The position numbers and the translations under genes are program-made. Shown here one piece after another: positions 12,680-40,131 of a stretch of 40,240 bases of DNA. Positions within the stretch are counted from its first letter, which is position 1. Each line of letters starts with the position of its first letter. The stretch is from Pollutimonas subterranea. GTDB taxonomy: Bacteria; Pseudomonadota; Gammaproteobacteria; Burkholderiales; Burkholderiaceae_B. The notes below the pieces were generated by a model. The model worked only from the letters and a program-made list of their open reading frames with translations. It was not told the origin of the DNA and did not search any database. The DNA lies in NCBI RefSeq assembly GCF_002849655.1, contig NZ_PDNW01000026.1:1-40240 (forward strand), written 5' to 3'.

Positions 12680-14179
12680 ATGCTACGTATCGTTTACGGC
12701 GGTTTCCAACACGAAACAAATACCTTTGCGCCTGATTTGGCCGATTGGGACGCCTTCCTGGCCGGTGGCGGCTGGCCAGGCCTGATGTCGGGTGACGCCA
12801 TTTGGCCCGCGATTGCGGGCGCCAATATTCCCGCCGCCGGTTTTGTGAAATGCGCACAAGATGCAGGCGACACCGTCATTCCTACGACCTGGTGCGCAGC
12901 CAGCCCATCGGCGCACGTTGCCGCCGACACGTACGAACGCATCGCCTCGATGATTGTCGACGGCATCAGTGCCGCTTTGCCGGTGGATGCCGTGTATCTG
13001 GACTTGCATGGTGCCATGGTGGCCCAGACTTTCGATGATGGCGAAGGCGAACTATTGCGCCGGGTGCGCGCGGTTGTCGGGCCCGACGTGCCTATCGTGG
13101 CCAGCCTGGACCTGCATGCCAACGTGACTGCACAGATGCTGCACGAGGCCGACATACTTGTCGCCTATCGCACCTATCCCCATGTCGACATGGCCGAAAC
13201 CGGCGCCCGGGCGTACCAGCAACTGCAACATCGGCTTGCCAAGGGCGTACGGCCCAAGGTTGCCGTACGCCGTTTGCCCTTCCTGATTCCCATCTGCTGG
13301 CAATGTACCGACATACAGCCATCCAAAGGCCTGTATCAGCAACTCGCGCAGATCGAGAACGACGTCACTCATGTGTCGTTCACCACAGGGTTTCCAGCGG
13401 CAGACTTTAAAGAATGCTCACCGGTGATCTGGGCGTATGCCGACGATCAAGCCAGCGCCGACGCAGCCGCCGACCAGCTGGAAGCCGCCGTCAATGCAGC
13501 GGAGTCATCGTTCGCCGGCAAGCTCTACAGCCCCGACGAAGCCGTGCAGTACGCCATGCAAAAATCATTGACCAGTTCCAAACCCATCGTCATTGCCGAT
13601 GCCCAGGACAACCCGGGCGCTGGCAGTAATTCGGACACTACCGGCATGCTGCGCGCCTTATTGCGTAACAAGGCCCAGCGTGCCGCTATCGGCCTGATCA
13701 TCGACCCCGCTGCGGCCGCGAAAATACATGAAGCCGGAGAAGGGCAGCGCATTCGCATTGCCATCGGTGGCAACGCGGGCCTTCCTGACGACCAGCCCTT
13801 TGAAGGCGATTTTCTTATCGAGCGCCTGTCGGACGGCAAGACCGCCGCGACGGGGCCTTATTACCACGGGTTCAACCTCGATATGGGCTTGTCCGCATGC
13901 CTGCTGATCGACGGTGTGCGCGTGGTCCTGGCCTCGCAGAAAGTACAAATGGCGGATCAGGCCATGTTCCGCTTTGTGGGCGTTGAGCCAACCGAGCAAG
14001 CCATTTTGGTCGTGAAAAGCGCGGTGCACTTTCGTGCCGACTTCACCCCCATTGCCGAAGAAATCATCGTAGGCGCCGCGCCTGGCTCCATGCCCATGAT
14101 CCTGAAGCAATTGCCTTGGAAGAACTTGCCGGTGGGAATACGGCTGGATCCTTGCGGGGAAGCCTTCCAGGTGGCGTAA
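12680..14179 (+). CDS. M81-family metallopeptidase (MlrC-like)
   Basis: A 499-residue protein of the M81/MlrC family, named for the microcystin-degradation enzyme MlrC of Sphingomonas. Motifs associated with the zinc site are present in order: FQHETNTFAPD near residue 9, YLDLHGAMVAQ near 106, SLDLHANVTAQM near 143, and YPHVDMAETGARAYQ near 167; DAQDNPGAGSNSDTT is another family hallmark in the second half. GAGAGG precedes the start. The gene follows the peptide ABC transporter after 82 bases. MlrC homologues cleave small linear peptides including bonds next to D-isoglutamate; here it may hydrolyse peptides brought in by the transporter. The exact substrate is unknown. Confidence 0.9.
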   Translation: MLRIVYGGFQHETNTFAPDLADWDAFLAGGGWPGLMSGDAIWPAIAGANIPAAGFVKCAQDAGDTVIPTTWCAASPSAHVAADTYERIASMIVDGISAALPVDAVYLDLHGAMVAQTFDDGEGELLRRVRAVVGPDVPIVASLDLHANVTAQMLHEADILVAYRTYPHVDMAETGARAYQQLQHRLAKGVRPKVAVRRLPFLIPICWQCTDIQPSKGLYQQLAQIENDVTHVSFTTGFPAADFKECSPVIWAYADDQASADAAADQLEAAVNAAESSFAGKLYSPDEAVQYAMQKSLTSSKPIVIADAQDNPGAGSNSDTTGMLRALLRNKAQRAAIGLIIDPAAAAKIHEAGEGQRIRIAIGGNAGLPDDQPFEGDFLIERLSDGKTAATGPYYHGFNLDMGLSACLLIDGVRVVLASQKVQMADQAMFRFVGVEPTEQAILVVKSAVHFRADFTPIAEEIIVGAAPGSMPMILKQLPWKNLPVGIRLDPCGEAFQVA

Positions 14180-23858: not shown

Positions 23859-25100
23859 ATGGACATGACATCTTTGTACCCACGAAGAATCGAGCTACGC
23901 ACAGCTGAAGCCTTGCAGGACACGCCAGTAGTCCTACTGGTCGGCCCTCGCCAAGCGGGTAAGACGACTCTGGTGCGTCAAATAGCAGAGCAGCGGGGCC
24001 TGCGCTACCTGACCATGGACGATGAGCTGACGCTGTTATCAGCGCGGGAAGACCCGGTTGGCATGATACGCAGCCTGGATCGGGCAGTGATCGATGAGAT
24101 CCAGCGTGCCCCTCAATTGCTGTTGGCCATCAAGAAAAGCGTGGATGAAGATCGACGTCCCGGGCGTTTTCTGTTGACCGGCTCGGCCAACCTGATGGCG
24201 CTGCCGACCGTCGCTGATTCGTTGGCTGGCCGGATGGAAACCTTGTCGCTGTTGCCCCTATCGCAAAGCGAAATCCGATTCAGCTCTGCGAACTGGATAG
24301 AAAGCGCATTCGCAGGACAGATTCTCAAGGCAGATCAACCTTCCGTGGGCAGCGATCTGATTGATCGAGTGTTGCGTGGCGGCTACCCTGAAGCAATTAC
24401 GAGAGCATCTGCCAAGCGGCGAGTGGCGTGGGCACGCCAGTACATCGACGCCATAATCCAGCGTGATGTCCGCGACGTGGCGGGCATCGAGAAACTGGAC
24501 CATCTGCCGCGCTTTCTGCGTGCACTGGCGCAGACGGCAGGCCAGATGTGCAATTACACCCAACTCGGCGGCCAGGTGGGACTGGATGGCAAGACAGCTT
24601 CTCGGTATGTCAGTGTCTTTGAGCAGATGTACTTGCTCAAGCGCATCGATGTCTGGGCGCGCAACCGGCTCAATCGCGTGGTAAAGACGCCGAAGCTGCA
24701 GTTCATCGATTCTGGCTTGCTTGCGACGCTGCTCGATTTGAGCGGTGATGAGGTTCAGCAGGATCGCACGCGGTTTGGCAATGTGCTGGAGACGTTCGTT
24801 TTTAGCGAGCTGCTCAAGCACACGACCACTGCAGACGGCGACTATCGCTTGATGTACTACCGGGATGCCGACAAGTTCGAGGTCGATGTCGTGATCGAGA
24901 ATGCCGCGGGAAACTTGGTATGCGTCGAGGTGAAAGCCGCAGCCACCGTCAGGGAGAGCGATCTGCGCGGCCTGAAAAAACTGGCCGGCATCGCGGGTGA
25001 TCAATTCAGGATGGGGGTGTTGCTGTACGACGGCACAGAGACGATGCCATTGGGAGATCGGATCTGGGCCGCTCCTCTGTCGTCGCTATGGGGTAATTGA
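23859..25100 (+). CDS. AAA+ ATPase with DUF4143 domain
   Basis: A 413-residue protein. The N-terminal AAA domain has Walker A GPRQAGKTT near residue 31, Walker B AVIDEIQRAP near 75, and sensor-like FLLTGSANLM near 105. The C-terminal DUF4143 region follows a winged-helix-like stretch (NYTQLGGQVGLDGKTASRYVS in two pieces) and ends in FEVDVVIENAAGNLVCVEVKAA, an Asp...Glu-x-Lys pattern like that of PD-(D/E)XK nucleases. Such ATPases are widespread in bacteria and archaea, scattered and often horizontally acquired; their function is poorly defined. The start ATG lies right after the 22-bp repeats with no clear ribosome binding site. Rpn relics lie on both sides. Confidence 0.9.
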   Translation: MDMTSLYPRRIELRTAEALQDTPVVLLVGPRQAGKTTLVRQIAEQRGLRYLTMDDELTLLSAREDPVGMIRSLDRAVIDEIQRAPQLLLAIKKSVDEDRRPGRFLLTGSANLMALPTVADSLAGRMETLSLLPLSQSEIRFSSANWIESAFAGQILKADQPSVGSDLIDRVLRGGYPEAITRASAKRRVAWARQYIDAIIQRDVRDVAGIEKLDHLPRFLRALAQTAGQMCNYTQLGGQVGLDGKTASRYVSVFEQMYLLKRIDVWARNRLNRVVKTPKLQFIDSGLLATLLDLSGDEVQQDRTRFGNVLETFVFSELLKHTTTADGDYRLMYYRDADKFEVDVVIENAAGNLVCVEVKAAATVRESDLRGLKKLAGIAGDQFRMGVLLYDGTETMPLGDRIWAAPLSSLWGN

Positions 25101-25157: not shown

Positions 25158-26441
25158 TCAAGCGTCCAATCGTTGGCTTGGTGCACCGGCCTCGGCATTC
25201 CGCATACACGCCCACACAATCACCATCGTCAACACAAAGAAAATAATCCCGTTATTGCGCCCCAAGATCACCTGGCTCATGCCAAACATGAAGTACGACG
25301 CCAGGAGCGTGGACCCGCACAAGGCCAGTGCCTTCACCGCGATATCGGGCGAGCGCAGCCGCTTACAGAAGTACCAGAAGGGCAGCAGGTACATCGCCAG
25401 CAGCAGCACCAAGCCGATCGCGCCCTGGAACAACAGCACCTCAAGATAATTATTGTGCGTGTTCGCCATTTCCAGCATGTAGGGGTCGACCTTCTTTTCC
25501 GCCACCAGCCGCTCGATCTCAGCCCGGGCTTCCTGGTGGCTCCAGCCGAGCAGCGGCCGCTGGGGTATAAGGATGAAGGCGGTGCGCCAGATTTCCAGGC
25601 GTGCACCCACCGACGATACCGCGGCGTCCTTGCCGACGTATTTCGTGGTCATGTACTTGTCGACTTCGGTCACCGCCAGGTCGTAGCGTTCTTGCACGCC
25701 GGTTTCCGGTACCGAAAACACCACGCCCACCACAACCACCACGCCGGCAAGCCCCATCAATGCATGCTTGATGTTGCGTCGATGCATGAAGGCATACAGG
25801 AAGACCAGCGCAACCGGCGGAATAGCCAGCCAGCTGCCGCGGCTGCCAGACGCCATGACGGTATAGATGCTGGCCAGGACGCCGACCGCAAAGGCGACAC
25901 GCCAGTGCTTGGCATACCGGCCCTGCGTACCGGCCCACAGCATGCCGGCGATGCAGAACAAGCCGAATACCAGGCCAATATTGCCAAAATGAATGATGTT
26001 AAGAAAGCCCGCGGCCCGGTTATCCCCCAGCCAGTGCAACTGCCACACGGCAATGCCATTGGACAGCACGATGCCAATGACTACGCTGGCCCATAGCAGC
26101 GGCAGCCGGGGCGGCATGGCCCGCAGCATCAGCAATATAGGAATCGCCATGATCAAGCGGCTGGTCTGGTCCAGCGGCTTGGGGCTGTTGTCGTGCAGCA
26201 AGACCATGAGCACCGACCACAGGAATACGGCCAGCAGCGAAAAGATGATGGTCTTTTCTTCGCGGGTCAGTGTGGGCAAAGGATGCCGGGCCATGAAGTA
26301 CACGCCGCTTAGCAGCAGCGTCATCGCCCCATAGGAATAACCCGAAGGAATGGCAAACATCAGCGAGAAGTACAGGAATACGCCCGACGACGCCAGTATG
26401 GGTAAAGCGCTACCTTGGAAACGGCTTTCGGTTATTGCCAT
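25158..26441 (-). CDS. O-antigen ligase / polymerase-type membrane protein (Wzy_C domain)
   Basis: An integral membrane protein of about 427 residues with roughly ten or more membrane segments. The large periplasmic loop of the Wzy_C fold lies in the second half, with SRGSWLAIPPVALVF before it and RPLLGWSHQEARAEIERL then ANTHNNYLEVLLFQGAIGL within it; the His in THNNYLE is the conserved catalytic-type residue of WaaL-like ligases. It would join O-antigen (or another undecaprenyl-linked glycan) to lipid A-core or to protein. The frame begins at a GTG at 26447; I prefer the ATG at 26441. It starts the glycan block running to 31 kb. Confidence 0.88.
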   Translation of the reverse strand: MAITESRFQGSALPILASSGVFLYFSLMFAIPSGYSYGAMTLLLSGVYFMARHPLPTLTREEKTIIFSLLAVFLWSVLMVLLHDNSPKPLDQTSRLIMAIPILLMLRAMPPRLPLLWASVVIGIVLSNGIAVWQLHWLGDNRAAGFLNIIHFGNIGLVFGLFCIAGMLWAGTQGRYAKHWRVAFAVGVLASIYTVMASGSRGSWLAIPPVALVFLYAFMHRRNIKHALMGLAGVVVVVGVVFSVPETGVQERYDLAVTEVDKYMTTKYVGKDAAVSSVGARLEIWRTAFILIPQRPLLGWSHQEARAEIERLVAEKKVDPYMLEMANTHNNYLEVLLFQGAIGLVLLLAMYLLPFWYFCKRLRSPDIAVKALALCGSTLLASYFMFGMSQVILGRNNGIIFFVLTMVIVWACMRNAEAGAPSQRLDA

Positions 26442-26557
26442 TCGCACAATGATATGAGTGATTAAGGGTTGTGATTATAGTCAGGGCGCCAATACGTAAC
26501 ATGCTACGCTTACCGGCTGGGTAACAACCCCGCCATTTTGCCTAATTCACCCATATT

Positions 26558-29898: not shown

Positions 29899-30972
29899 AT
29901 GAAAATCCTTATTACCGGCGGTGCCGGCTTTATTGGCTCGGCCTTGACGCGCTATGTAGTGGCCGACACGACTGATGCGGTCGTCAATGTAGACAAGCTG
30001 ACCTATGCCGGTAACCTGGAGTCGCTGGCCGACGTGGCAAACAGCGATCGCTATGCCTTCGAGCAGGTCGACATCTGCAATCGTGCCGAGCTGGACCGCG
30101 TGTTTGCCCAGCATCAGCCTGATGCCGTCATGCACCTGGCCGCCGAATCGCATGTGGACCGTTCCATCGACGGACCTGCGGCGTTCATAGAAACCAATAT
30201 TGTGGGCACCTATACTTTGCTGGAAGCCGCGCGCCAATATTGGCTGGGCCTGGACGAAACGCGCAAAGTGGCGTTTCGCTTCCACCATATATCGACCGAT
30301 GAAGTCTATGGCGACCTGGAAGACCCCAGCGAACTATTCATCGAAAGTACACCTTACGATCCCAGTTCGCCGTACTCGGCAAGCAAGGCCAGCTCCGATC
30401 ACTTGGTACGCGCGTGGCGCCGCACTTATGGCTTGCCCACGCTCATCACCAATTGCTCGAATAACTACGGCCCCTATCACTTCCCGGAAAAACTCATACC
30501 GCTGGTCATACTGAACGCGCTCGACGGAAAACCGCTGCCGGTATATGGTGCGGGCAACCAGGTTCGCGACTGGCTATATGTGGAAGACCATGCGCGGGCG
30601 TTATATGAAGTTGTCACAAAGGGTGAAATAGGCGAAACCTACAACATCGGCGGCCATAACGAGAAAAGGAACATTCAAGTCGTACACACCATCTGCGAGT
30701 TGCTGGATGAGCTGCGGCCCATGCCGGCGGACGCCAATGGCCAGGCTGTTTTCTACAAAAGCCTGATCACCCATGTACCCGATCGTCCCGGCCACGACCT
30801 GCGCTACGCCATAGACGCCTCCAAGATTCAGCGCGACCTTGGTTGGAAGCCAGAAGAAACCTTCGAATCCGGCATACGCAAAACGGTGGAATGGTATTTG
30901 GCCAACCTGCCATGGTGCCGTCACGTGCAGGATGGCAGCTATCAACGTGAACGTCTGGGCGTCAAGGCATGA
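29899..30972 (+). CDS. rfbB: dTDP-glucose 4,6-dehydratase
   Basis: A 357-residue extended SDR that converts dTDP-glucose to dTDP-4-keto-6-deoxyglucose, the first committed step to rhamnose and other deoxysugars. Visible are [12 protein letters not shown] at the N-terminus, [18 protein letters not shown], the catalytic [11 protein letters not shown] (Asp-Glu pair), [16 protein letters not shown] (YxxxK), and [15 protein letters not shown]. The other rhamnose genes (rfbA, rfbC, rfbD) are not in the window and would have to be elsewhere, unless the product feeds another sugar. No clear ribosome binding site precedes the ATG. A gap of 43 bases separates it from the next gene. Confidence 0.95.
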
Positions 30973-31015: not shown

Positions 31016-31651
31016 ATGACAGACTCTACCCAAACCGATACCACCTACTGGCTAAGCCAGCAGTTCAAGATCACCTTCGGCGCCTATGAAGACCGGCTGA
31101 TCGTCACGGCCAATCGCGGTGAGCACGGCCCCGTCAATTTGCTGTTGACGCGTCGTATGGTCATGATCGTTTTGCACGAACTGCTGTCCAAGCTGGCCGA
31201 CCTGACCGGCCTTAGCAAGACGCCTGCGCAGCATTGGCAGGAAGTATTGCAGATGGCACATCAGCAAGCCATGCAAGCCAAGCAAGACGCCGACCAAGCC
31301 GCGGAGCCTTCCGTCGCCGATACGCCGCCGACGCTGGCCGACGTATCGCAAGCCGCAGCGGCCTCGGTTGCTCCCCCGCCCGAACTCTATCTGGCCACCG
31401 AACTGGTCATCCAATTGGAAGACAAGCAGCTGACCATGGCATTCAAGGGATTGCCCATGCCCAAGGCGATGGTCACGGCCAGTGCACACGAGCCAGTCCT
31501 TGCGATTAGTTTGCAGCCCGAACACGTACATCAATTGATCCAGTTGCTGATCACCAAGTCGCAAGAGGCGCAGTGGCATTTACCCTTGAGCCTGCCTTGG
31601 CTCGAAAATCCACAGTCGCAGCCGACCAGCCTGGGCACTCTTATCCATTAG
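31016..31651 (+). CDS. Uncharacterised 211-residue protein upstream of SapC
   Basis: I do not recognise this protein. It has no signal peptide or membrane segment. It falls into two halves joined by an Ala/Gln/Pro-rich linker (about residues 78-123). Each half has short strands followed by a hydrophobic helix that begins after a similar turn: VNLLLTRRMVMIVLHELLSKL in the first (given in part: LLLTRRMVMIVLHELL) and ISLQPEHVHQLIQLLITK in the second, suggesting an internal duplication. GGA lies about six bases upstream of the ATG. Its place between rfbB and the SapC/type I secretion genes suggests a cytoplasmic role in surface-protein production, for example as chaperone or regulator; this is inference from position only. 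Confidence 0.8.
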   Translation: MTDSTQTDTTYWLSQQFKITFGAYEDRLIVTANRGEHGPVNLLLTRRMVMIVLHELLSKLADLTGLSKTPAQHWQEVLQMAHQQAMQAKQDADQAAEPSVADTPPTLADVSQAAAASVAPPPELYLATELVIQLEDKQLTMAFKGLPMPKAMVTASAHEPVLAISLQPEHVHQLIQLLITKSQEAQWHLPLSLPWLENPQSQPTSLGTLIH

Positions 31652-31702
31652 ACGCCTTAGGGGCGACGAAGTCGTTTGAAGTCGGCTGAAGAGGGTGTCT
31701 CC

Positions 31703-31708
31703 TATAAT
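31703..31708 (+). promoter_or_regulatory. Perfect TATAAT -10 box upstream of sapC
   Basis: A consensus TATAAT lies 31 bases upstream of the sapC ATG, giving a leader of about 25 bases that includes the AGGAAG ribosome binding site. A TTGAAG at 31676-31681 could be a -35 box but its 21-base spacing is too long, so activation by a factor may be needed. If real, it allows the SapC gene to be transcribed apart from rfbB and the 211-residue protein. Confidence 0.35.
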
Positions 31709-31738
31709 TGGATACTCCTTCGCCATACAGGAAGATCA

Positions 31739-32527
31739 ATGCCCGCTTTACAAGTCATTTCCCAAGAAAACCATGCCGGCAAACGTTGGCAACGCTACAC
31801 CTCATATTCATTTGCCGCAGGCGACGCTGTTGCACAATTGGTCGCACAAGAACTGCCCAAGGCCGCCATGGTAATTCCGGTGGGCTTTATCGAGGTCGAC
31901 GGTGGGTTTATGCCCGTGGCGGTGCAGGGCTTGCAGCCCGGCCAGAACCTGTATGTCGCCCCCGACGGCCGCTGGCTAGCGCAATACATACCGGCCGCGT
32001 ATCGCGGCTATCCCTTCGCGCTGGCCAACACGCAGGATGGCCAGCAGGTCATGTGCTTCATCGAAGACAGCGGTCTACTTTCGGACACCGACGGCGAGCT
32101 TTTCTTTGATGAAGCCGGCGAACCGGCGCAGCCGTTGAAGGATGTGCTCGGCTTCTTGTCGCAGGTCAGCGAAAATCGCCAGACCACCCAGCGCATGTGC
32201 GCGGTCTTGCAGCAGCATGGCCTCATACAGCCTTGGCCGATCAAACTGCAGAACGAAGCGGGCGAACAGAGTATAGAAGGCTTGCATCGTATCGACGAAG
32301 CGACCTTGAACAAGTTGTCTGCCGAGGCTTTCGAAGAAGTCCGCCAGTCTGGCGCGCTGCCAATCATCTACTGCCAATTGCTGTCCATGCAGCATTTGCA
32401 GAAACTCGGCCAGCTGGCCCAGGCGCATGCCGCCCAGCCGACCGCGCTTCCGCAGACCGCCAGCGGCGAATTGGACCTCGAATTCCTGAACGATAGCGGC
32501 ACAATCAGCTTCGGCGGCTTGCGTTAA
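31739..32527 (+). CDS. SapC-family protein
   Basis: A 262-residue protein of the SapC family, named after a gene of the Campylobacter fetus S-layer locus. Features seen are KRWQRYTSYSFAAGD near the start, then AAMVIPVGFIEVDGGFMPVAV, GRWLAQYIPAAYRGYPFAL and FCIED-like CFIEDSGLL, all in the order usual for SapC proteins, and a Ser/Gly-rich tail. The frame is open to 31676, but the ATG at 31739 follows AGGAAG (31729-31734). No signal peptide is visible. Biochemical function is unknown; members sit repeatedly next to S-layer or type I secretion genes. Here it is directly upstream of the secretion system. Confidence 0.88.
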   Translation: MPALQVISQENHAGKRWQRYTSYSFAAGDAVAQLVAQELPKAAMVIPVGFIEVDGGFMPVAVQGLQPGQNLYVAPDGRWLAQYIPAAYRGYPFALANTQDGQQVMCFIEDSGLLSDTDGELFFDEAGEPAQPLKDVLGFLSQVSENRQTTQRMCAVLQQHGLIQPWPIKLQNEAGEQSIEGLHRIDEATLNKLSAEAFEEVRQSGALPIIYCQLLSMQHLQKLGQLAQAHAAQPTALPQTASGELDLEFLNDSGTISFGGLR

Positions 32528-32704
32528 ACACGGTTTATAGTTTGCAGACAGTACGCAACAATGCCCGCAGATCGCGGGCGTTCAACCATTTGTAGGGGGG
32601 CAACGTGATATAGTAAAAGGCTTTTTCATAAAAAGACTAAACCTTTTTCACTATCGTTTTGCACTCGCTATGCTGCTAGCCATGTGCCGCCTACAGGTCC
32701 ACCC
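32528..32704. other. Intergenic region between sapC and the secretion operon
   Basis: It contains a GC-rich hairpin GCCCGC-AGATC-GCGGGC (32563-32579) just after sapC, not followed by a T run, so at best a weak or Rho-assisted terminator. Further on are CTTTTTCATAAAAAG (32621 onwards) and a TATAGT (32609-32614) that could be a -10 box, without a good -35. The region could contain the promoter of the type I secretion operon. Confidence 0.4.
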
Positions 32705-34447
32705 ATGAAGTCATCCCGTCGCACCGAGTTGGGCGAAGTACTCTACCGATTCCGCAAGACGTTCTACAGTTTGGCTGCATTCAGCTGTGTCATCAACCTG
32801 CTTGCGCTTACGCCTTCGCTGTATATGCTGCAGGTGTATGACCGCGTGCTGGCCAGCGGCAACAAGACCACCTTGTTGATGCTCACCATATTGGTGTTGG
32901 GCGTTTACCTGCTGTCGGGCTTGCTGGAATTTGCCCGCTCTTCGGTACTGATTCGCGTCGGCAACCGTTTCGATATGCTGCTGAACAAGCGCGTATTCAC
33001 GGCATCGTTCGAACAGAACCTGGTACGAGCCGGTGGCAACCCGTCGCAAGCCATCCACGACCTGACCAATTTGCGCCAATTCCTGACCGGTAATGCGCTA
33101 TTCGCGTTTTTTGATGCACCGTGGACGCCTATTTACATCGCCGTCACCTTCATGGTCCATCCGCTATTGGGCCTGATTACACTGGTTGGTTCGATTCTGT
33201 TGTTCGTGCTTGCCTACATCACCAATATCGCCACGCAAAAGCCATTGGCCGAGGCCAATCAGGCTTCTATCGTGGCCGGTAACTTTGCCAACAACCACCT
33301 GCGCAACGCCGAAGTGATCGAAGCCATGGGCATGCTGCCCGGCCTGCGCGAACGTTGGTTTGGTCAGCATCGCCGCGTGTTGTCGCTGCAAACAGTGGCT
33401 TCCGACCGCGCTGCGCGTATCAGCACGGTTACGCGATTCGTGCGTATTTCACTGCAGTCCCTTATCCTTGGTGCGGGTGCGCTGCTGGTTATCGACGGTA
33501 CCATTACCGCCGGTATGATGATTGTCTGCTCAATACTCATGGGCAAAGCGCTGGGGCCGGTCGAGCTTGCCATTGGCACCTGGAAGAACATGCTGTCTTC
33601 GCGCGTGGCCTATGGCCGCCTGGACGAAATGTTGAAAGAAGCGCCGCCGCGCGGCGAGAAAATTACCTTGCCTGCTCCGAAAGGCGACCTTCTGCTTGAA
33701 AACGTCTTCGCCAGCGCGCCCGGCGCGCCGGTCTCCATCTTGAAAGGCCTTTCCTTCGCAGTCAGTTCCGGCGAGGTGGTAGGCGTTATCGGACCCTCGG
33801 CTTCGGGCAAATCCACGCTGGCACGATTGCTGGTCGGCGTGTGGCAGGCTCGGGCAGGGCACGTGCGCCTGGACGGCGCCGACGTATTCCACTGGAATAA
33901 AGACGAACTGGGCCCGCACCTAGGCTATTTGCCGCAGGAAATCGAGCTGTTTGAAGGCACGATTGCAGAAAACATCGCCCGCTTCGGCGAACCTGACGAT
34001 GCCAAGGTGATCCTGGCCGCCCAGCGAGCTGGCGTGCACGACATGATCCTGCGCTTGCCGCAAGGCTATGACACGCGCTTGGGCGTAGGCGGTGCTTCCT
34101 TGTCTGGCGGACAAAAGCAGCGTGTAGGGCTGGCGCGTGCCATTTATGGCGATCCGGCGCTGGTGGTGCTGGACGAACCCAATTCCAACCTGGACGACGT
34201 CGGCGAAGCCGCGCTGGTCCAGACGGTGAACGACTTGAAGCGGCGCGGCACAACAGTCATCGTTATTACACACCGCATGAATATTCTGAATGCAGTGGAC
34301 AAGCTGCTGGTCTTGCGCGAGGGTGTCATGACCTTGTACGGCCCGCGCGAAGATGTGCTGAAGGCATTGCGCCAGCAACAGGCGCAAATCGCCGCTGCGG
34401 CCAGCGGCCCCACGCCTCTGCAAATCGTAGCGAAAGGGCAGGCCTGA
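32705..34447 (+). CDS. Type I secretion ABC transporter (PrtD/RsaD-like)
   Basis: About 580 residues: an N-terminal six-helix membrane domain (LALTPSLYMLQVYDRVLASGNKTTL near residue 35, split here as LYMLQVYDRVLASGNKTT) and a C-terminal ATPase with Walker A GPSASGKST near residue 362, signature SLSGGQKQRVGLARA near 464, Walker B LVVLDEPNSNLD, and the His of ITHRMN. It lacks the N-terminal C39-like domain of HlyB, matching the PrtD/AprD/RsaD class that exports proteases and S-layer proteins. A GTG at 32684 is possible, but the ATG at 32705 has a nearby CAGG. It is the first of three tightly packed genes. Confidence 0.94.
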   Translation: MKSSRRTELGEVLYRFRKTFYSLAAFSCVINLLALTPSLYMLQVYDRVLASGNKTTLLMLTILVLGVYLLSGLLEFARSSVLIRVGNRFDMLLNKRVFTASFEQNLVRAGGNPSQAIHDLTNLRQFLTGNALFAFFDAPWTPIYIAVTFMVHPLLGLITLVGSILLFVLAYITNIATQKPLAEANQASIVAGNFANNHLRNAEVIEAMGMLPGLRERWFGQHRRVLSLQTVASDRAARISTVTRFVRISLQSLILGAGALLVIDGTITAGMMIVCSILMGKALGPVELAIGTWKNMLSSRVAYGRLDEMLKEAPPRGEKITLPAPKGDLLLENVFASAPGAPVSILKGLSFAVSSGEVVGVIGPSASGKSTLARLLVGVWQARAGHVRLDGADVFHWNKDELGPHLGYLPQEIELFEGTIAENIARFGEPDDAKVILAAQRAGVHDMILRLPQGYDTRLGVGGASLSGGQKQRVGLARAIYGDPALVVLDEPNSNLDDVGEAALVQTVNDLKRRGTTVIVITHRMNILNAVDKLLVLREGVMTLYGPREDVLKALRQQQAQIAAAASGPTPLQIVAKGQA

Positions 34448-34448
34448 C

Positions 34449-35792
34449 ATGAGTTGGTTCAAGAAGAATAAATCCTCCGACGTCACCGACGTGGTGGACT
34501 TGGTCGATACAAATTCCCAGGCGCCCATGCGCTGGGGCATGGCCGTGCTGCTGATCGGTTTTGGTGGCTTTGCCTTGTGGGCGGGGTTTGCGCCGCTGGA
34601 CGCCGGTATTCCGGCCAACGCCACCGTGGAGGTCGCGGGCAACCGCAAGACCATCCAGCATCTGGAAGGCGGCTCGGTGGACGAAATCCTGGTGCGCGAA
34701 GGCGATAAGGTAAGCGCCAACCAGGTGTTGGTGCGTCTTAACCCCACTCGCGCCGTTGCCGAGCAAGGGGTCATCAGTGCCCAGTACATCATGGCCAAGA
34801 CGACCGAAGCCCGGTTGCTGGCCGAACGCGACGAATTGCCCGCGGTCGTGAACGACCCGGACGTCGTCGAGCGCTTCAAGGACGACCCGCGTTTTGCGAG
34901 CGCCGTGCGCGCGCAGGCGCGTCTGTTTGAAACCCGGCGCGAGGCATTGAAGGGTGAAATCGCCATCCTCAAAGAAAACCAGCGTGGCGCTGAAGCGCAG
35001 CTTAAAGGTCTTACCCAGGTCCAGGGCAGCCGCAAGTCGCAGATCAACTTCATCAACCGCGAACTTACGGGTGTGCGCCAATTGGCCAAAGAAGGCTATC
35101 TGCCGCGCAATCGCATGTTCGAACTGGAACGCGACGCCGCCCAGTTGCAGGCGGCCTTGTCCAACGACATGGTCGAAGCAGGGCGCGTGCGCAACCAGGT
35201 CTCGGAACTGAAATTGCGTGTGATACAACGCAGCCAGGAATACCAGAAGGAAGTCCAGTCGCAACTGTCCGACGTGCAAAAAGAAGCCTCGGCCCTTGGC
35301 GACCGGCTGTCCGCGCTGGATTACACCGTTCGCGAAACGCAAATTCGGTCGCCGCTGGATGGCGTCGTGCAAAACCTTAAGGTACACACCCTGGGTGGCG
35401 TAATCGGCCCTGGAACGGTTTTGATGGAGGTCATCCCCGCCGATCACGCCTACCTGGTGCAGGCGCAGGTGCCCGTACAGGCCATCGACAAGGTGGCGCC
35501 CGGACTTCCCGTGGAAATCACCTTTCCGGCCTTTAACCACTCCAGCACGCCCAACATTCCCGGCACGGTACTCACGGTATCGGGGGACCGCCTGACCGAT
35601 GAGGCCACCAACATGCCTTACTATCGTGCGCAAATCGAAGTCACGCCAGAGGGCGTGGAGATGCTGGGCAATAATGTCATTCGGGCCGGCATGCCGGCTT
35701 CGGTGCTGATACGCACGGGCGAGCGCACGATGATGAGCTATCTGCTCAAGCCTTTGCTAGAGCGTCTGAACAAGTCCTTCAAGGAACAGTAA
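34449..35792 (+). CDS. Type I secretion membrane-fusion protein (HlyD/PrtE/RsaE-like)
   Basis: A 447-residue periplasmic adaptor: a cytoplasmic N-tail, a membrane segment at about residues 28-47, a barrel-hybrid region (GNRKTIQHLEGGSVDEILVREGD), long coiled-coil helices (about residues 95-290, rich in Glu, Arg, Gln and Ala), and the returning lipoyl half with IRSPLDGVVQNLKVHTLGGV. The P-motif-like stretch VEVIPADHAYLV-like MEVIPADHAYLVQAQV follows. It starts one base after the stop of the ATPase gene, so expression is coupled. It bridges the inner-membrane ABC protein and the outer-membrane channel. Confidence 0.94.
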   Translation: MSWFKKNKSSDVTDVVDLVDTNSQAPMRWGMAVLLIGFGGFALWAGFAPLDAGIPANATVEVAGNRKTIQHLEGGSVDEILVREGDKVSANQVLVRLNPTRAVAEQGVISAQYIMAKTTEARLLAERDELPAVVNDPDVVERFKDDPRFASAVRAQARLFETRREALKGEIAILKENQRGAEAQLKGLTQVQGSRKSQINFINRELTGVRQLAKEGYLPRNRMFELERDAAQLQAALSNDMVEAGRVRNQVSELKLRVIQRSQEYQKEVQSQLSDVQKEASALGDRLSALDYTVRETQIRSPLDGVVQNLKVHTLGGVIGPGTVLMEVIPADHAYLVQAQVPVQAIDKVAPGLPVEITFPAFNHSSTPNIPGTVLTVSGDRLTDEATNMPYYRAQIEVTPEGVEMLGNNVIRAGMPASVLIRTGERTMMSYLLKPLLERLNKSFKEQ

Positions 35793-35794
35793 CC

Positions 35795-37204
35795 ATGCGT
35801 GCGATCCTGGCTTCAGTAAGCGCGGCTGGACTGGTGGCGTTGCTTGCTGCCCCGGCATACGCGCAAGTCCAAACGAGCAGGGTGGAGGTGGCGCAAAAAG
35901 ACACGTCGCCCTCCGTCATGACGCTTAGCCACGCCTGGACGGCCGCGCTGGAGCACGATCCGACCTATCAGGCCGCCATCAGCGAGCGTGAAGCCGGTCA
36001 AACCAACAGGGCCATGGGCCGGGCCGGTTTGCTGCCCCAGGTCAGCGCCTCGCTGGGCCGCAACAAGGTGCGTGGCACGCTGGACAGCCCCACTGCGCGC
36101 GGCGACGTGGTACGCGAAGACCTGGACTATATGTCGCACACCAACGAGATCCGGGCCACACAGCCCATTTTCGACTGGGGCCGCATCGAGGAATACAGGC
36201 AGGGCCACGCCCGCGCTGACTACAGTCTGGCCGTGTTTGATACCAAAGCCACCGACACCTCCGAGCGCCTGATCAACCGCTACTTCCAAACACTGTTGTC
36301 ATACGAAAATGTGGTGCTGGCCGAGAGCAAGCTGCAAGCCAACGAAAAGCAGATCACCGCCGCCGAGCGCCGTTACGACAGTGGCGAAGGCACGGTGACC
36401 GACGTGCGCGAGTCCAAGTCGCGACGTGACCTGACCAAGGCCGATGTGATTCAGGCACAAGATGCCTTGATCGTGGCGCGTCGCGAGCTGGAGGAAATGA
36501 TAGGCAGTTCCCCCATCGCGTTGACGACGCTGAAGGCCGCCTTCCAGACCAAGCCCTTGGTGCCAGGTGCCTTGTCGGATTGGCAGTCCATGGCCATGGT
36601 TGGCAATGCAGAGATACGGGCAGCACAGCAAGGCTTGCGTATTTCCGACCTGGAAGTGGGCCGCACCTTCGGCGGCCACCTGCCAACGCTGAATATCGTG
36701 GCGTCGCGGCGCGACGTCTCCAGCGAGACGCTATCAACGCGCGATCAGGACAGTGCGACCAATTCCTTTGGCTTCCAGGTTTCCCTGCCTATTTTCTCCG
36801 GAGGACTGACCAGTGCACAGGTCAGCCAGTCGCGACATAACCGCGACCGTGCCGGCCAGGAACTGGCCGCCACGCGTGAGCGCATTTCCGTCGAGGTGAC
36901 GCGGCAATACCAGGGCGTGGTCAGTGGCACACAGCGGGTCAGGGCCTTGGTAACGGCGGTGGAGTCCACCGAAGCCGCGCTGAAGGCCATCGAAATGGGC
37001 TACCAGGCCGGTACGCGCAGCATCGTGGACATTCTGGATGCCCAGGACCAGCTTTATCGCTCACGCCTGGACCTGGTACAGGCCAGGCTGGAATACGTAC
37101 TGGCCAGGCTGATGTTGTCAGGCGCCGTAGGTGGGCTTGATGCCAATGTGATCAACGCGGTCAGCAAGACGTATTTCGGTCCGGAGAAAGTGGTGTTGGG
37201 CTAG
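35795..37204 (+). CDS. Type I secretion outer-membrane channel (TolC family, RsaF/PrtF-like)
   Basis: A 469-residue TolC-family protein with a signal peptide of about 24 residues ending AAPAYAQ. Two outer-membrane-efflux repeats are visible; the first begins LSHAWTAALEHDPTYQAAISE and contains AGLLPQVSASLGRNKV, the second begins near NAEIRAAQQGLRISDLEVG and contains GHLPTLNIVASRRD, ending with GTRSIVDILDAQDQLYRSRLD. It starts two bases after the adaptor gene. Together the three genes make a complete type I exporter. The stop overlaps the stop of a paralogous TolC-type gene on the other strand by four bases. Confidence 0.94.
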   Translation: MRAILASVSAAGLVALLAAPAYAQVQTSRVEVAQKDTSPSVMTLSHAWTAALEHDPTYQAAISEREAGQTNRAMGRAGLLPQVSASLGRNKVRGTLDSPTARGDVVREDLDYMSHTNEIRATQPIFDWGRIEEYRQGHARADYSLAVFDTKATDTSERLINRYFQTLLSYENVVLAESKLQANEKQITAAERRYDSGEGTVTDVRESKSRRDLTKADVIQAQDALIVARRELEEMIGSSPIALTTLKAAFQTKPLVPGALSDWQSMAMVGNAEIRAAQQGLRISDLEVGRTFGGHLPTLNIVASRRDVSSETLSTRDQDSATNSFGFQVSLPIFSGGLTSAQVSQSRHNRDRAGQELAATRERISVEVTRQYQGVVSGTQRVRALVTAVESTEAALKAIEMGYQAGTRSIVDILDAQDQLYRSRLDLVQARLEYVLARLMLSGAVGGLDANVINAVSKTYFGPEKVVLG

Positions 37205-38757
37205 TCCTGTTTGCCATTCAGTGAAATGGCCGGCCCCAGGTAGACATTGCTGATGCGGTCGAACTGAACACTTTCCAGCTCACCCACGGCGCTGGCCAGT
37301 TCCATGTGCGCCAATAAATACTCCAGACGCGCCTTTACCAACTGGTATTTGGCCTGATACAGCTTGTCTTGCGTCTTGAGCACATCAAGATTGCTAGTAG
37401 CGCCGTACAAAAAGCTTTTTTCCGCCGAGTCCAGGCTTAGCTGACTGGATTCCACCGCGGCTTGCAGGGCGCTGATGCGCTCGGCCCCCCCCTGCACATT
37501 GGTGTATTGGCGCGTAATGGTGGCCTGCACCCGTTCACGCGTCGCATCCAGTTCCTGCTGCAGCCGGCGCCAATCCAGGCGCGCCCGCGACACATTGGCC
37601 GTGTTGTAGCCGCCGGTGAAGATAGGGATGTTGACCTGGATTCCAATAATGAAGGTATTACTGCGCTGGCTTAACGTCGACAGATTTTCGCTATCGGCCT
37701 TGCCGTAGCTGGCTACCAGGTCCATGGTGGGAAAGTAGCGGCTTGCGGCCCGGTCCACTTCGGCATCGGCCACGCGCACCGCTTCCTGTGCGGACCGCAC
37801 GTCCGCATTGTTGACGGAGCGCTCCAGCCACTGCTGAAGGCTGGCCGGTATCAAGGGCAATACGGGGAAGTCTCGAGTGAGGGTAGCAACCGTGTCCACG
37901 GGCGCACCCACCAATGCCTGTAATTCGCGCGCGGCCACACGCAACTGATCGTCGGCAGCAATCACATCCGCGCGAGCCACGGCAAGCCGGGCTTGCGTTT
38001 CCTGCACGTCGGTGCTGGTTCCCTCGCTTTGTCGGTATCGTGCTTCCAGTGCTTTAGTCTGCGATTCCAGCGACTCAGTCAGCGAAACCTGCAAGCCCCA
38101 CTTGTCGTAAGCCAAAAGTAGGTTGAAATAAGCCGTCGCGAGGCGTATACCCGTTTGCTGCTGCTTGACGGCGAAGACCGCAGTGCCTTGCTGGGCCCGT
38201 GCCACGCCACGGCGATATTCCGCATAGCGCCCATAGTTCAACAGTGGTTGCTGCAGCTGGACATAGGCATTGGTAGAGTCGTAACTGACGTCCGAGGATA
38301 AGCGCCGCCCCATAGAGGGCTGTTCGACAGTACCCTTTACCTTGCTGCGCGAATAGCCGGCCTGCACCTGCGGCAGCAGGGCGGAACGCCCTTGTTGTCT
38401 TTGTGTCTGTGTCGCGGCTTGCTCGCTAATGGCGGCCAGATAAGTGTGGTCGTATTCAAGGGCCAGGCGCCAGGCGCGGGATAGGTCTACGACGCCCTGA
38501 ATAGAAGAGGGTGGTACGCCATGCTCGGCAGCGTCGGGGCTATCGTACTGCGCGTGCAGTAGATACTTATAAGGAATGGACGTGGCCTGCGCATGAACGG
38601 GCATACCGGCGAAACTGCTCAATGCAATAGTGGTGACCCATAATGCACGTAGACTGGATGTTTGGAGTCGCAACGTATGTGGTTGTTTGCTGGGGGCGAC
38701 GCGGGAAGTTTGGCCAGTGAGATTTGAAAGCGCCACAGGGTCGAGCGATACAGACAT
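37201..38757 (-). CDS. Second TolC-family outer-membrane channel, paralogue in opposite orientation
   Basis: A 518-residue TolC-family protein clearly related to the preceding one: SRAWRLALEYDHTYLAAISE matches the first-repeat start, and RSALLPQVQAGYSRSKVKGTV and ATSNLDVLKTQDKLYQAKYQL are equivalents of conserved segments. A hydrophobic stretch ending GMPVHAQ near residue 57 is the likely signal peptide, so the first 30 residues may be an over-extension; a downstream TTG near residue 28 is an alternative start. It could serve the same exporter or another. Caulobacter also uses two such channels, RsaFa and RsaFb, for its S-layer. Confidence 0.9.
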   Translation of the reverse strand: MSVSLDPVALSNLTGQTSRVAPSKQPHTLRLQTSSLRALWVTTIALSSFAGMPVHAQATSIPYKYLLHAQYDSPDAAEHGVPPSSIQGVVDLSRAWRLALEYDHTYLAAISEQAATQTQRQQGRSALLPQVQAGYSRSKVKGTVEQPSMGRRLSSDVSYDSTNAYVQLQQPLLNYGRYAEYRRGVARAQQGTAVFAVKQQQTGIRLATAYFNLLLAYDKWGLQVSLTESLESQTKALEARYRQSEGTSTDVQETQARLAVARADVIAADDQLRVAARELQALVGAPVDTVATLTRDFPVLPLIPASLQQWLERSVNNADVRSAQEAVRVADAEVDRAASRYFPTMDLVASYGKADSENLSTLSQRSNTFIIGIQVNIPIFTGGYNTANVSRARLDWRRLQQELDATRERVQATITRQYTNVQGGAERISALQAAVESSQLSLDSAEKSFLYGATSNLDVLKTQDKLYQAKYQLVKARLEYLLAHMELASAVGELESVQFDRISNVYLGPAISLNGKQD

Positions 38758-38905
38758 TGAATACCTTCACGACCAAGGTGTGCGTCACGCCGGTCCGGGA
38801 GAAAACCCTTATTCTACCAACTGTTTAGCCCCTTCTTGTCACAACAGCGCGCTTATCAACGAATTGAAACCGTGTTTATTATGGTAAAAAGCTGTCTGAG
38901 GCTGA

Positions 38906-38923
38906 ATGATGTGATTACATCAT
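38906..38923. promoter_or_regulatory. Perfect inverted repeat ATGATGT-N4-ACATCAT, possible operator
   Basis: Seven-base arms around GATT, extended outward by CTGA on the left and TTCAG two bases further out on the right. It lies about 225 bases before the S-layer-like ATG and about 150 bases upstream of the second TolC start. It is not followed by a T run in either direction, so operator rather than terminator is the better reading. Confidence 0.4.
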
Positions 38924-39080
38924 GCTTCAGAAATCCGGCCATGTGGCCGTATCGCGAGTGCTGTAGATCGTAACATATGTCGTTTTCAAGCATCAAAATC
39001 GCCCGAAAAGGCCCAAAAGCCTAAGGATGATAGTGTATGCTCCAACAATAACAAGCTGTAGCGACTTGTTTATTGTCGTA

Positions 39081-39116
39081 TACTGCGATCGATGTAACTA
39101 CTGCAATCGACGTAAG
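39081..39116. repeat. Tandem 18-bp repeat in the leader of the S-layer-like gene
   Basis: TACTGCGATCGATGTAAC (39081-39098) is followed at once by TACTGCAATCGACGTAAG (39099-39116), 15 of 18 bases identical. The first copy overlaps the putative -10 box TATACT, and the second ends about 30 bases before the ATG. It could bind a regulator at the transcription start or form part of a leader RNA structure that stabilises an abundant message. Confidence 0.6.
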
Positions 39117-39147
39117 TTTTATCCCTAATATTTCGGAGTGTTGAAGA

Positions 39148-40131
39148 ATGGCGAACCCAATCTGGTTTAATAAAGAAGACTACCTCACCAGCAAGCTAGC
39201 GCAATTGCGCGCCGCTGGCGACAATACATATAGCAACATCGTTACACTTGATGCTGCTCTTGTAAACGCAGGTTTCACTGCGTTCAGCCATTTCGAAGCC
39301 TTCGGCTCGATTGAACGCACCAGCCCTAACAAATATTTCAACGCAACAGAATACCTGGCAGCTAAAGCTGTTCAATTGAATAGTGTTGCCGGCAACACTA
39401 AGGTCTGGACCGCCGACAACGTCGCACTGGCCATTAAAGACGCGGGCATGACTGTTTGGGGCCACTATCAGGCGTTCGCTCTGACTGAAAACGTCAACCC
39501 ATCCAACAGCTTCGATGTCAGCTCGTACATGGCAGACAAGCTTGCGCAATTGCAAGCAGCTGAACCAGCAAAGGGCTGGACCGCAGAGCAAGTGAAAGAC
39601 GCTTTTGTCGCTGGCGGTCTTGATCCGATCTCCCACTATGTGGCTTTCGGTACAGCTGAATCGCTGACAGTTAAACCCGTTCCAGCTGGCGAGCAAGTAC
39701 CTTCGGATTCGTCGAGCGGCCAAGTTTTCACGCTTACTGCTGCTGCTCAGACTTTAGTCGGCACATCGGGTAACGATACGTTCGTTGGCGTGGTTGATGC
39801 AGTTACTACCGCTAACACGACGCTGAGTGTTATAGACAGCATTAATGGTGGTGCCGGCACAGATACCCTCGTTGTGACCACGGTCGGAACTGTAGACGTT
39901 CTCAATAATGCGCTGATTTCTAACATTGAAGCCGTCTCGATTCGTAATACTGAAGCCACTACTGGCGGTCTTGCCTCTATTTCCGCTACGGGACTAAGTT
40001 CGGGCGTAACTGCGACCGGAACCGGCGATATCACGGTTACCAACTTGGCAAACGGGGTCGCGTTCACGGCCAATGGCGCAACTGGCGCTCCGGTGATTAG
40101 CCAAGGCTACGTTCCCCCTCTGTCACAATAG
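39148..40131 (+). CDS. S-layer-like / large type I secreted surface protein, truncated by an IS element
   Basis: 327 codons, of which about the first 312 belong to the original gene. Residues 5-175 are three repeats of 57-58 residues: starts WFNKEDYL (6), YFNATEYL (63), SFDVSSYM (121); ends FSHFEAFG (46), WGHYQAFA (104), ISHYVAFG (161). Then come GQVFTLTAAAQTLVGTSGNDTFVG (given in part) and DSINGGAGTDTLVV, followed by ISNIEAVSIRN, in the same order as the equivalent region of Caulobacter RsaA. Thr/Ser/Ala/Val-rich beta-type sequence follows. No N-terminal signal peptide is present, as expected for type I export. GGAG (39135-39138) precedes the ATG. After about residue 312 the frame enters IS DNA and stops at a TAG. 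The C-terminal export signal and calcium-binding repeats expected are missing, so the product is probably not secreted. Confidence 0.85.
   Translation: MANPIWFNKEDYLTSKLAQLRAAGDNTYSNIVTLDAALVNAGFTAFSHFEAFGSIERTSPNKYFNATEYLAAKAVQLNSVAGNTKVWTADNVALAIKDAGMTVWGHYQAFALTENVNPSNSFDVSSYMADKLAQLQAAEPAKGWTAEQVKDAFVAGGLDPISHYVAFGTAESLTVKPVPAGEQVPSDSSSGQVFTLTAAAQTLVGTSGNDTFVGVVDAVTTANTTLSVIDSINGGAGTDTLVVTTVGTVDVLNNALISNIEAVSIRNTEATTGGLASISATGLSSGVTATGTGDITVTNLANGVAFTANGATGAPVISQGYVPPLSQ

Follow-up and report, generated by a model that had tools for sequence, protein, structure and literature searches.

The window analysed here, a stretch of 40,240 nucleotides from Pollutimonas subterranea, breaks off inside the gene for a large repetitive protein that lies beside a type I exporter. 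This raises the question of whether the locus codes for an S-layer of the type formed by Caulobacter RsaA, and what its additional genes might contribute. RsaA-type S-layers are known from Caulobacter, methanotrophs and a few other bacteria, and the name SapC, given to one of the additional genes, also comes from an S-layer locus. The first-pass annotation had described a cluster of X211, SapC, an exporter operon, a second TolC-type gene and the start of the large protein (designated SLP). All of these features were found by open reading frame analysis and Pfam/NCBIfam searches, grouped at the contig end (Table 1). For SapC, the PF07277 match reached 227 bits against a cut-off of 28.9; its reading frame is open from 31676 (TTG), and the ATG at 31739 corresponds to a methionine that most rows of alignment A2 share. 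The RmlB-type gene ends 43 nt upstream of X211, and its product possibly supplies glycan for an anchoring O-antigen.

Table 1. Genes and elements of the locus, with positions in the window.
Feature	Position	Strand	Remarks
O-antigen ligase-type protein (Wzy_C), in flanking glycan genes	25158..26447	-	PF04932, E 4e-22
RmlB-type dTDP-glucose 4,6-dehydratase	29899..30972	+	TIGR01181 above cut-off
X211	31016..31651	+	211 aa; no Pfam/NCBIfam match above cut-off; no strongly hydrophobic segment
SapC-family protein	31739..32527	+	PF07277, E 2.8e-67
Type I secretion ABC transporter/permease (RsaD/SapD position)	32684..34447	+	TIGR01842, 769 bits against cut-off 510
HlyD-type periplasmic adaptor (RsaE/SapE position)	34449..35792	+	TIGR01843 above cut-off
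TolC1, outer-membrane channel of exporter operon	35795..37204	+	TIGR01844 above cut-off
TolC2, second outer-membrane channel	37201..38757	-	TIGR01844 above cut-off
SLP gene, 5' part (322 aa), RsaA-like	39148..40113	+	domain picture taken from relative in genus-mate G001
Insertion sequence end, interrupts SLP gene; contig end	40114..40240	.	common to five other contig ends

The window ends with contig C18. The SLP coding sequence stops at 40113 and an insertion sequence begins at 40114, so that the last five residues of the listed open reading frame and its stop at 40131 come from the element, the end of which is common to five other contig ends over 127-132 nt. The 3' part of SLP (516 aa) was identified on contig C21, the first 127 nt of which represent the opposite end of the element and also occur on C31, C61 and C27. 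A 4-bp CGTT is present on both sides of the element, on C18 and C21; since C35 and C31 also carry CGTT, the pairing of C18 with C21 rests also on homology and reading frame. The two pieces (322 and 516 aa) match one uninterrupted gene for 850 aa in the genus-mate G001. By these comparisons, an insertion sequence divides the main SLP gene of the source strain, which is whole in close relatives. On C21, the source genome also contains an intact SLP paralogue of 618 aa.

Intact relatives of SLP comprise this paralogue, the 850-aa protein of G001 and a 956-aa protein of G004, an open reading frame with an uncertain N-terminal start. The profile built for the family (A4) matched the RsaA structures 6p5t, 5n97, 5n8p and 6z7p with E 2e-38 to 2e-33, in two significant stretches of which the main one reaches the C-terminus; the next matches were an antifreeze protein (1e-9) and serralysins (3e-8). 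The order of motifs after the repeats, which had been likened to RsaA from the fragment, was thus recovered in intact relatives as a colinear profile match up to the last residues. For the AlphaFold2 model of G001 SLP (pLDDT 74.9), Foldseek gave six matches at E<=0.001, all to RsaA (E 2.6e-11 to 4.3e-9) and five of them aligned over about 840 columns; the next match had E 3.7e-2. The TM-scores to RsaA were only 0.37-0.41 (0.32-0.41 when normalised to the target), and the fold match is to be read with the caveat that AlphaFold2 may have learnt RsaA. A profile or a gammaproteobacterial relative was needed for the RsaA link, because single-sequence searches with G001 SLP (E<=0.01) and with the window fragment (E<=1) did not retrieve RsaA; the gammaproteobacterial relative found it at 6e-14. 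The intact relatives therefore indicate that the SLP family is homologous to RsaA across the lattice region and the C-terminus, as judged by profile and model. In a phylum-wide search at E<=1e-20, the SLP profile matched one of 398 genomes, the source genome itself; as no more than two candidates from each genome were scored, this outcome was regarded as uninformative.

TolC2 adjoins an SLP gene in four genomes, the source genome (G000), G001, G004 and G021, and SLP, TolC2, SapC and the exporter are linked by their neighbourhoods. The sequence data place an RsaA-homologous, cysteine-free protein with a predicted pI of about 4 and no recognisable enzyme domain beside a complete type I exporter, accompanied by a gene for a second outer-membrane channel and by O-antigen genes.

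The distribution of X211 was compared among related genomes. X211 was counted in 12 of 14 listed genomes, G016 and G035 (matches at E about 5e-4) being dropped, and SapC was present in 12/12. Proteins with the N-terminal repeat of SLP were found in 11 of the 12 X211 genomes and in 2/138 others (p = 6e-14, a nominal value as the genomes are related); the 13 genomes with the repeat were chosen by hand from profile positions, with at most six candidates scored per genome. For the twelfth X211 genome, G102, repeat motifs lie in L122, the same place by coordinates. The genus-mate G003, with 87% DNA identity over 32661-38656 (ABC to TolC2), keeps the exporter and contains neither X211 nor SLP. The occurrence of X211 follows that of SLP and SapC, not that of the exporter. 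Structure searches gave no convincing relative for X211 or SapC; for SapC, the best match among solved structures (8rjx, E 0.0014 over 56 residues) was taken as chance. Handling roles of SapC and X211 are suggested by their co-occurrence.

A further gene probably lies just beyond the window. On C21, 0.7 kb after the 3' part of SLP, the source genome carries a PF10119 methyltransferase (E 3e-29), the copy of which is split over two frames, cut near its end and located beside IS66. The profile of this methyltransferase (A5) matched only PKMT1 and PKMT2 among PDB entries at E<=0.001. The match to PKMT1 (5dnk, E 4e-29) covers profile positions 25-498 of 518, corresponding to the AdoMet domain and the following domains; it supports PKMT-type homology for the relatives, the source copy being broken. 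Lysine methylation of the surface-layer protein is suggested by the gene neighbourhood. An open reading frame considered as a possible second methyltransferase (L123:2902-4437) was rejected as unrelated; it stayed in the A5 profile for the PDB search and was left out of a separate HMM.

What kind of surface or secreted protein SLP represents was weighed on these data. A secreted RTX enzyme, for example a protease or lipase, would be in keeping with the PrtD-subfamily exporter and with RTX repeats, which are located near the C-terminus in most of the SLP family: the 3' part of the window gene matched PF00353 with 58.5 bits against a cut-off of 23, and of ten proteins scanned with Pfam, five scored above the cut-off, three below it and two, including SLP2, showed none. 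One G004 relative gave a sub-cut-off match to the C-terminal (RTX) domain of serralysin. However, no catalytic domain above the Pfam cut-off was identified in ten full or partial proteins, and the matches to serralysins are limited to the part around the RTX stretch, so that an enzyme was rejected as highly improbable. It is less easy to set SLP apart from an RsaA-fold adhesin or biofilm-matrix protein, which would form a patchy, non-crystalline coat and use a general type I outlet and a shared N-terminal anchor. The window SLP starts with three helical repeats (about residues 1-175), followed by a linker and the start of a beta-rich region, and the same N-terminal repeat occurs in proteins otherwise not RsaA-like (the 847- and 827-aa proteins of G004), so the repeat by itself is no mark of an S-layer. 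Several proteins with this repeat and different middles can share a locus, with four open reading frames of 827-956 aa in G004 and three proteins in L122. Codon adaptation was ordinary (0.60-0.64) in the pieces of SLP and in SLP2, lower than in any of the ten ribosomal genes used (0.68-0.78), and gave no support for very high expression; together with the low TM-scores, this would suit an adhesin. Against it, the match of the 850-aa orthologue's family to RsaA begins with the first beta region and extends to the final residues, and the composition is S-layer-like: cysteine is absent from 9/9 SLP sequences or pieces, with pI values of 4.05-4.47, and S-layer RTX proteins are described as likewise cysteine-free and acidic (PMC3034196). 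An adhesin was considered unlikely on this balance.

The accessory genes also allow other explanations. X211 might act in feedback control of SLP synthesis, by binding SLP mRNA or sensing unexported SLP, rather than in export; the level of RsaA is described as tightly regulated against build-up in the cytoplasm (PMC11026435). The AlphaFold2 model of X211 (pLDDT 76) consists of two beta-beta-beta-alpha units, and its ten best Foldseek matches were all chains of Pur-alpha, a nucleic-acid binder (E 0.025 to 0.12; probability up to 0.72 and TM up to 0.42 among the matches listed), while one of 15 X211 family members weakly matched the N-terminus of an AraC-type regulator (E 4e-4). X211 itself, however, gave no Foldseek match at E<=0.001 and no significant sequence match; a Pur-alpha or whirly-like fold was rejected at a best E of 0.025, and a regulatory role was regarded as rather unlikely. 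For the methyltransferase, it is possible, although somewhat doubtful, that the enzyme is unrelated to SLP and owes its position to chance or to shared transfer. The broken source copy would agree with this, as would the weak association of the domain with SLP matches per genome (18/44 versus 18/106, p 0.002). Across genomes, PF10119 was not significantly linked to X211 (p 0.098). In the fetched stretches, no SLP-profile match lay near eight methyltransferases with 37-50% identity, more distant homologues mostly lie outside type I surface-protein loci, and in a class-wide draw of 369, nine genomes contained a homologue at E<=1e-30, only the source genome pairing it with an SLP-profile match. 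On the other side, the G001 enzyme and the seven homologues closest to it among those found (62-75% identity) come from two families of the order (f1 and f2) and from three gammaproteobacterial loci. All eight are encoded at loci for type I surface proteins, and four have a coat-type gene at a distance of 0.25-2 kb; in G086, the nearest coat-type gene in the fetched stretch is about 20 kb away. G001 and the gammaproteobacterial loci entered the sample via SLP or X211, and only G028, G086, G090 and G037 were sampled for the methyltransferase itself. The tree fork holding the eight had a support of 84/83, below the tool's mark for firm branches; its labels for a surface protein nearby were set by hand, and the G015 methyltransferase (4-kb contig) was dropped. 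Remote relatives directly follow an autotransporter in L155, with L157 looking alike, or end an RTX-ABC-HlyD run in L162, and PKMT1 and PKMT2 are the only solved relatives, which also speaks against an unrelated enzyme.

The reading as an S-layer system with extra components, put forward in the first-pass annotation, gains support from the RsaA homology, the predicted fold and the linkage to the exporter. The orthologues were neither short nor enzymes, with lengths of 618, 850 and 956 aa, no enzyme domain above the Pfam cut-off and RsaA as the best structural match, and the exporter linkage was not lacking. We assign a probability of about 0.7 to an RsaA-type S-layer locus with the following proposed steps taken jointly. 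SLP would be made in the cytoplasm and kept ready for export by the soluble, SLP-linked pair of SapC and X211, and in strains with a whole PKMT-like methyltransferase beside SLP, its lysines would be methylated before export. It would leave the cell unfolded via ABC-HlyD-TolC1, directed by a C-terminal signal, with TolC2 as an alternative or added channel, and fold on Ca2+ outside. Its three N-terminal helical repeats would anchor it to the cell surface, probably through O-antigen, and it would assemble into a coat there.

The RsaA/RsaD-RsaE-RsaF system of Caulobacter is alike in the homology and fold of RsaA and in the PrtD-subfamily exporter; there, too, at least two outer-membrane channels serve RsaA, and the rsaA locus adjoins O-antigen genes. 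In contrast, a helical repeat present three times would form the N-terminal anchor in the locus described here, which has TolC in the operon and includes SapC, X211 and a PKMT-like methyltransferase, to our knowledge absent from the rsaA locus. The Caulobacter genome does contain PF07277 and PF10119 genes; none of the other 13 of 14 control genomes had one of either kind. The order SapC, ABC, HlyD, TolC resembles sapCDEF of Campylobacter fetus, with which it is likened by gene order, D, E and F presumably being the ABC, HlyD and TolC components. The sapCDEF genes are described in the C. fetus S-layer locus (PMC4943207) and SapDEF as a type I system (PMC6374484); X211 and the methyltransferase, as well as RsaA-like SLPs, distinguish the locus described here. 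In the methanotrophs Methylotuvimicrobium and Methylomicrobium album BG8, an RsaA-like protein is adjoined by all three exporter genes, and an acid-adapted BG8 also lost its S-layer, the gene for which carried a frameshift (PMC11784148, PMC13274458); SapC and a methyltransferase are not mentioned in the main text of either paper. For Rickettsia, OmpB is described as required for the S-layer (PMC13337285) and as methylated mainly by PKMT1 (PMC9553169). OmpB is an autotransporter, whereas the methyltransferase here is encoded next to an RsaA-like protein that uses type I secretion. Literature searches found no published report of methylation of an RsaA-type coat, which the gene neighbourhood suggests for this locus.

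The analysis places a putative RsaA-type S-layer locus in the Alcaligenaceae, together with an accessory set in which X211 would be a partner for SapC. We know of no role assigned to the parts of this set. Tentatively, and at somewhat less than even odds, it is proposed that PKMT-like enzymes beyond Rickettsia methylate coat proteins in the cytoplasm prior to export, whether these are type I (RsaA-like) or type V (OmpB-like autotransporter) secreted, and that RsaA-type coats need SapC and X211, a dedicated pair that would handle or meter the coat protein in Alcaligenaceae and some Gammaproteobacteria. If this holds, coat-lysine methylation would occur outside pathogens, and it may be asked whether it serves assembly, protection from proteases or phages, or export in free-living bacteria.

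By homology, the locus belongs with the RsaA-type S-layer systems, and the first-pass annotation, which had proposed such an export system, was right in the main, the family of its large surface-layer protein (SLP) being homologous to RsaA of Caulobacter. In the PDB set, RsaA was found neither by the window fragment of SLP alone (E<=1) nor by SLP of the genus-mate G001 alone (E<=0.01). With a profile built from eight relatives, the top-ranked matches were RsaA entries at E 2e-38 to 2e-33; significant similarity fell into two stretches, of which the last reaches the end of RsaA. Below these, over shorter stretches, came an RTX antifreeze protein at 1e-9 and then serralysins at 3e-8. A single gammaproteobacterial relative as query reached RsaA at 6e-14. 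The AF2 model of G001 SLP (mean pLDDT 74.9) consists of nine helices arranged as three repeats, with beta structure after them, and its six Foldseek matches at E<=0.001 were all RsaA, at modest TM-scores of 0.37-0.41 (one target-normalised value 0.32); RsaA may also have been learnt by AF2. Cysteine is absent from all nine of the SLP sequences or pieces, and their pI is 4.05-4.47. Codon adaptation did not mark out SLP as a top-expressed gene. In the genus-mate G004 (L066, L067), multiple proteins were identified with a common N-terminal helical repeat and differing middles, one of them with weak likeness to NosD; the repeat may thus serve as a surface anchor for cargo of this exporter in general.

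The assembly holding the window (contig C18:1-40240) comprises 4.54 Mb in 68 contigs. The stretch from 40114 up to where the contig stops is identical to five other contig ends (127 to 132 nt in common) and is therefore one end of an insertion sequence. The first 127 nt of contig C21 are common to three other contig starts; they are followed by CGTT, a tetranucleotide found just ahead of the element in the window too, after which comes an RTX-rich reading frame (PF00353 E 6e-16; SLP profile E 4e-20). In the window's own genome, G001 SLP as query matched C18 and C21 only (E<=0.01), in pieces of 322 aa and 516 aa, respectively. The large protein, of which the first-pass annotation had seen only the start, is encoded in G001 by an uninterrupted gene (850 aa; 53% identity to the first part of the window SLP). 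As no sequence in the assembly physically links the two contigs, we infer, though strongly, that the two pieces adjoin as one split gene. With SLP interrupted and the adjoining methyltransferase frame-split, both are therefore damaged in this strain, while relatives hold intact copies. The paralogue SLP2 ends in the NCBIfam 'bluetail' surface-protein domain, over cut-off, and an RTX scan of it gave no match.

Features of the locus, of its continuation on C21 and of remote methyltransferase loci
Feature	Position	Strand	Remarks
MlrC-family metallopeptidase (M81; PF07364/PF07171)	12680-14179		far under NCBI cut-off for true MlrC
AAA_14/DUF4143 ATPase	23859-25100		adjoins glycan genes
602-aa ORF	from 28005, upstream of X211		no family over cut-off
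Family-2 glycosyltransferase	upstream of X211
O-antigen ligase-type protein	upstream of X211
RmlB	43 nt upstream of X211
X211 (211 aa), SapC, ABC, HlyD, TolC1	within 31016-38757	+
TolC2	within 31016-38757	-
PF10119 methyltransferase	C21, beyond SLP 3' piece		two overlapping frames, split near gene end; adjoins IS66 element
SLP2	C21, beyond methyltransferase	-	618 aa, intact
Glycan genes incl. Wzt-type transporter	C21, beyond SLP2
RTX protein, ABC, HlyD, remote PKMT-like methyltransferase	L162:2-11651 (G509)	one strand	RTX protein 2115 aa, open at fetched edge
Autotransporter, PKMT-like gene	L155:3957-10131 (G252)		1504-aa Cys-free ORF, beta-domain PF03797
Layout as L155	L157:4498-10672 (G368)		ORF of same length and start; domain scan on L155 only

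SapC, the exporter components and TolC2 passed curated cut-offs, X211 being the exception. The order X211-SapC-ABC-HlyD-TolC1 was found again in many Alcaligenaceae, and SLP adjoins TolC2 in four genomes: G000 (which is the own genome), G001, G004 and G021. Like the window, Campylobacter fetus sapCDEF has SapC in the lead and three exporter genes next. PMC4943207 gives sapCDEF as a conserved portion of the C. fetus S-layer locus. The MlrC family, represented elsewhere in the window, takes its name from microcystin degradation.

In G001, a 510-aa methyltransferase (METHYLTRANSFERASE) is encoded immediately upstream of X211 and carries PF10119 (E 6e-34); in the PDB set it matched only the Rickettsia protein lysine methyltransferases PKMT1/2 at E<=0.001, and a profile likewise matched these alone. 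The order SLP, methyltransferase, SapC, X211 was identified in three gammaproteobacterial loci (L113, L120, L123), with an additional SapC following SLP in L120. In a tree of 25 sequences, the G001 enzyme groups with those of G028, G086, G037, G090 and these three loci (62-75% identity to G001), with support of 84/83, which is not firm. All 8/8 of this group are situated at type I surface-protein loci. G001, L113, L120 and L123 have SLP-family genes as neighbours; G028 and G086 have N-terminal-repeat proteins (~20 kb away in the latter); G037 has an RTX protein together with an exporter; and in G090 the neighbours are Cys-free proteins, an SLP-profile match lying ~23 kb off. At 37-50% identity, such a locus was found for G000, G032 and G077 and not for eight others, and could not be told for G015. 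Below 30%, the methyltransferase closes the RTX-ABC-HlyD run in L162, lies directly 3' of the autotransporter in L155 and is near a 1464-aa Cys-free ORF in L161; L159 was too short to tell, and seven loci (L137, L141, L144, L156, L158, L160, L163) have no such neighbour. Surface-protein labels change 5 times on the tree vs 8.5 in shuffles (6/500 as low). Of 369 genomes drawn from across the class, 9 have a homologue (E<=1e-30), with an SLP-profile match beside it in the own genome only.

Rickettsial OmpB is methylated by PKMT1 (PMC9553169), and the rickettsial S-layer requires OmpB (PMC13337285). The autotransporter-methyltransferase pair of L155, from a different family within the class, resembles the pairing with OmpB. 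We infer that SLP would be methylated by the PF10119 enzyme here. No account of this combination was found among CC-licensed PMC papers: those on lysine methylation of S-layer proteins were rickettsial or archaeal by title and abstract, none brought an S-layer together with a methyltransferase, lysine, RTX and type I secretion, and the match for SapC with S-layer and type I secretion concerned Chromatium okenii.

X211 matched in 14/150 related genomes at E<=0.001, of which 12 (E<1e-20) were counted. SapC is present in 48/150, and the SLP profile has any match in 36/150 and one within the N-terminal repeats in 13/150. SapC accompanies X211 in 12/12 genomes, and repeat matches in 11/12 vs 2/138 without X211, where the p-value is nominal, the genomes being related. 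The sole exception, G102, has repeat motifs at its X211 locus (L122), so that its repeat protein was probably missed by the profile search. In the GTDB species set, 18 X211 loci were located by two short peptide patterns and are therefore only close relatives; 16 include SapC, 11 include the exporter, and 13 encode a protein matched by BLAST to the SLP set (weakly or as a fragment in L110, L112 and L115), the other five being fetched stretches of 8-13 kb. In the four gammaproteobacterial loci (two Pseudohongiella, Nitrincola, one MAG), the 20 kb retrieved contained no such exporter. In X211, a strongly hydrophobic stretch was not found; its model comprises two beta-beta-beta-alpha units. No fold matched it significantly; below significance, the top ten matches were all Pur-alpha. 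In G002 (L070-L073), two SapC paralogues, ~30% identical, adjoin ORFs of >4,500 codons.

The genus-mate G003 shares 87% DNA identity with the window across 32661-38656 and keeps SapC, the exporter (ABC protein 97% identical), TolC2 and glycan genes (L068, L069), with no match to X211, SLP or PF10119. Co-occurrence with SapC and repeat proteins, together with joint absence with SLP in G003, indicates that X211 tracks the coat protein and SapC, not the pump. Extra components with undescribed roles had already been supposed at first pass. In the putative S-layer locus the anchor is a variant one, and the accessory set is undescribed as far as the searched CC-licensed PMC papers go. With the pump kept and X211 and SLP absent, G003 is a natural contrast strain for this system.
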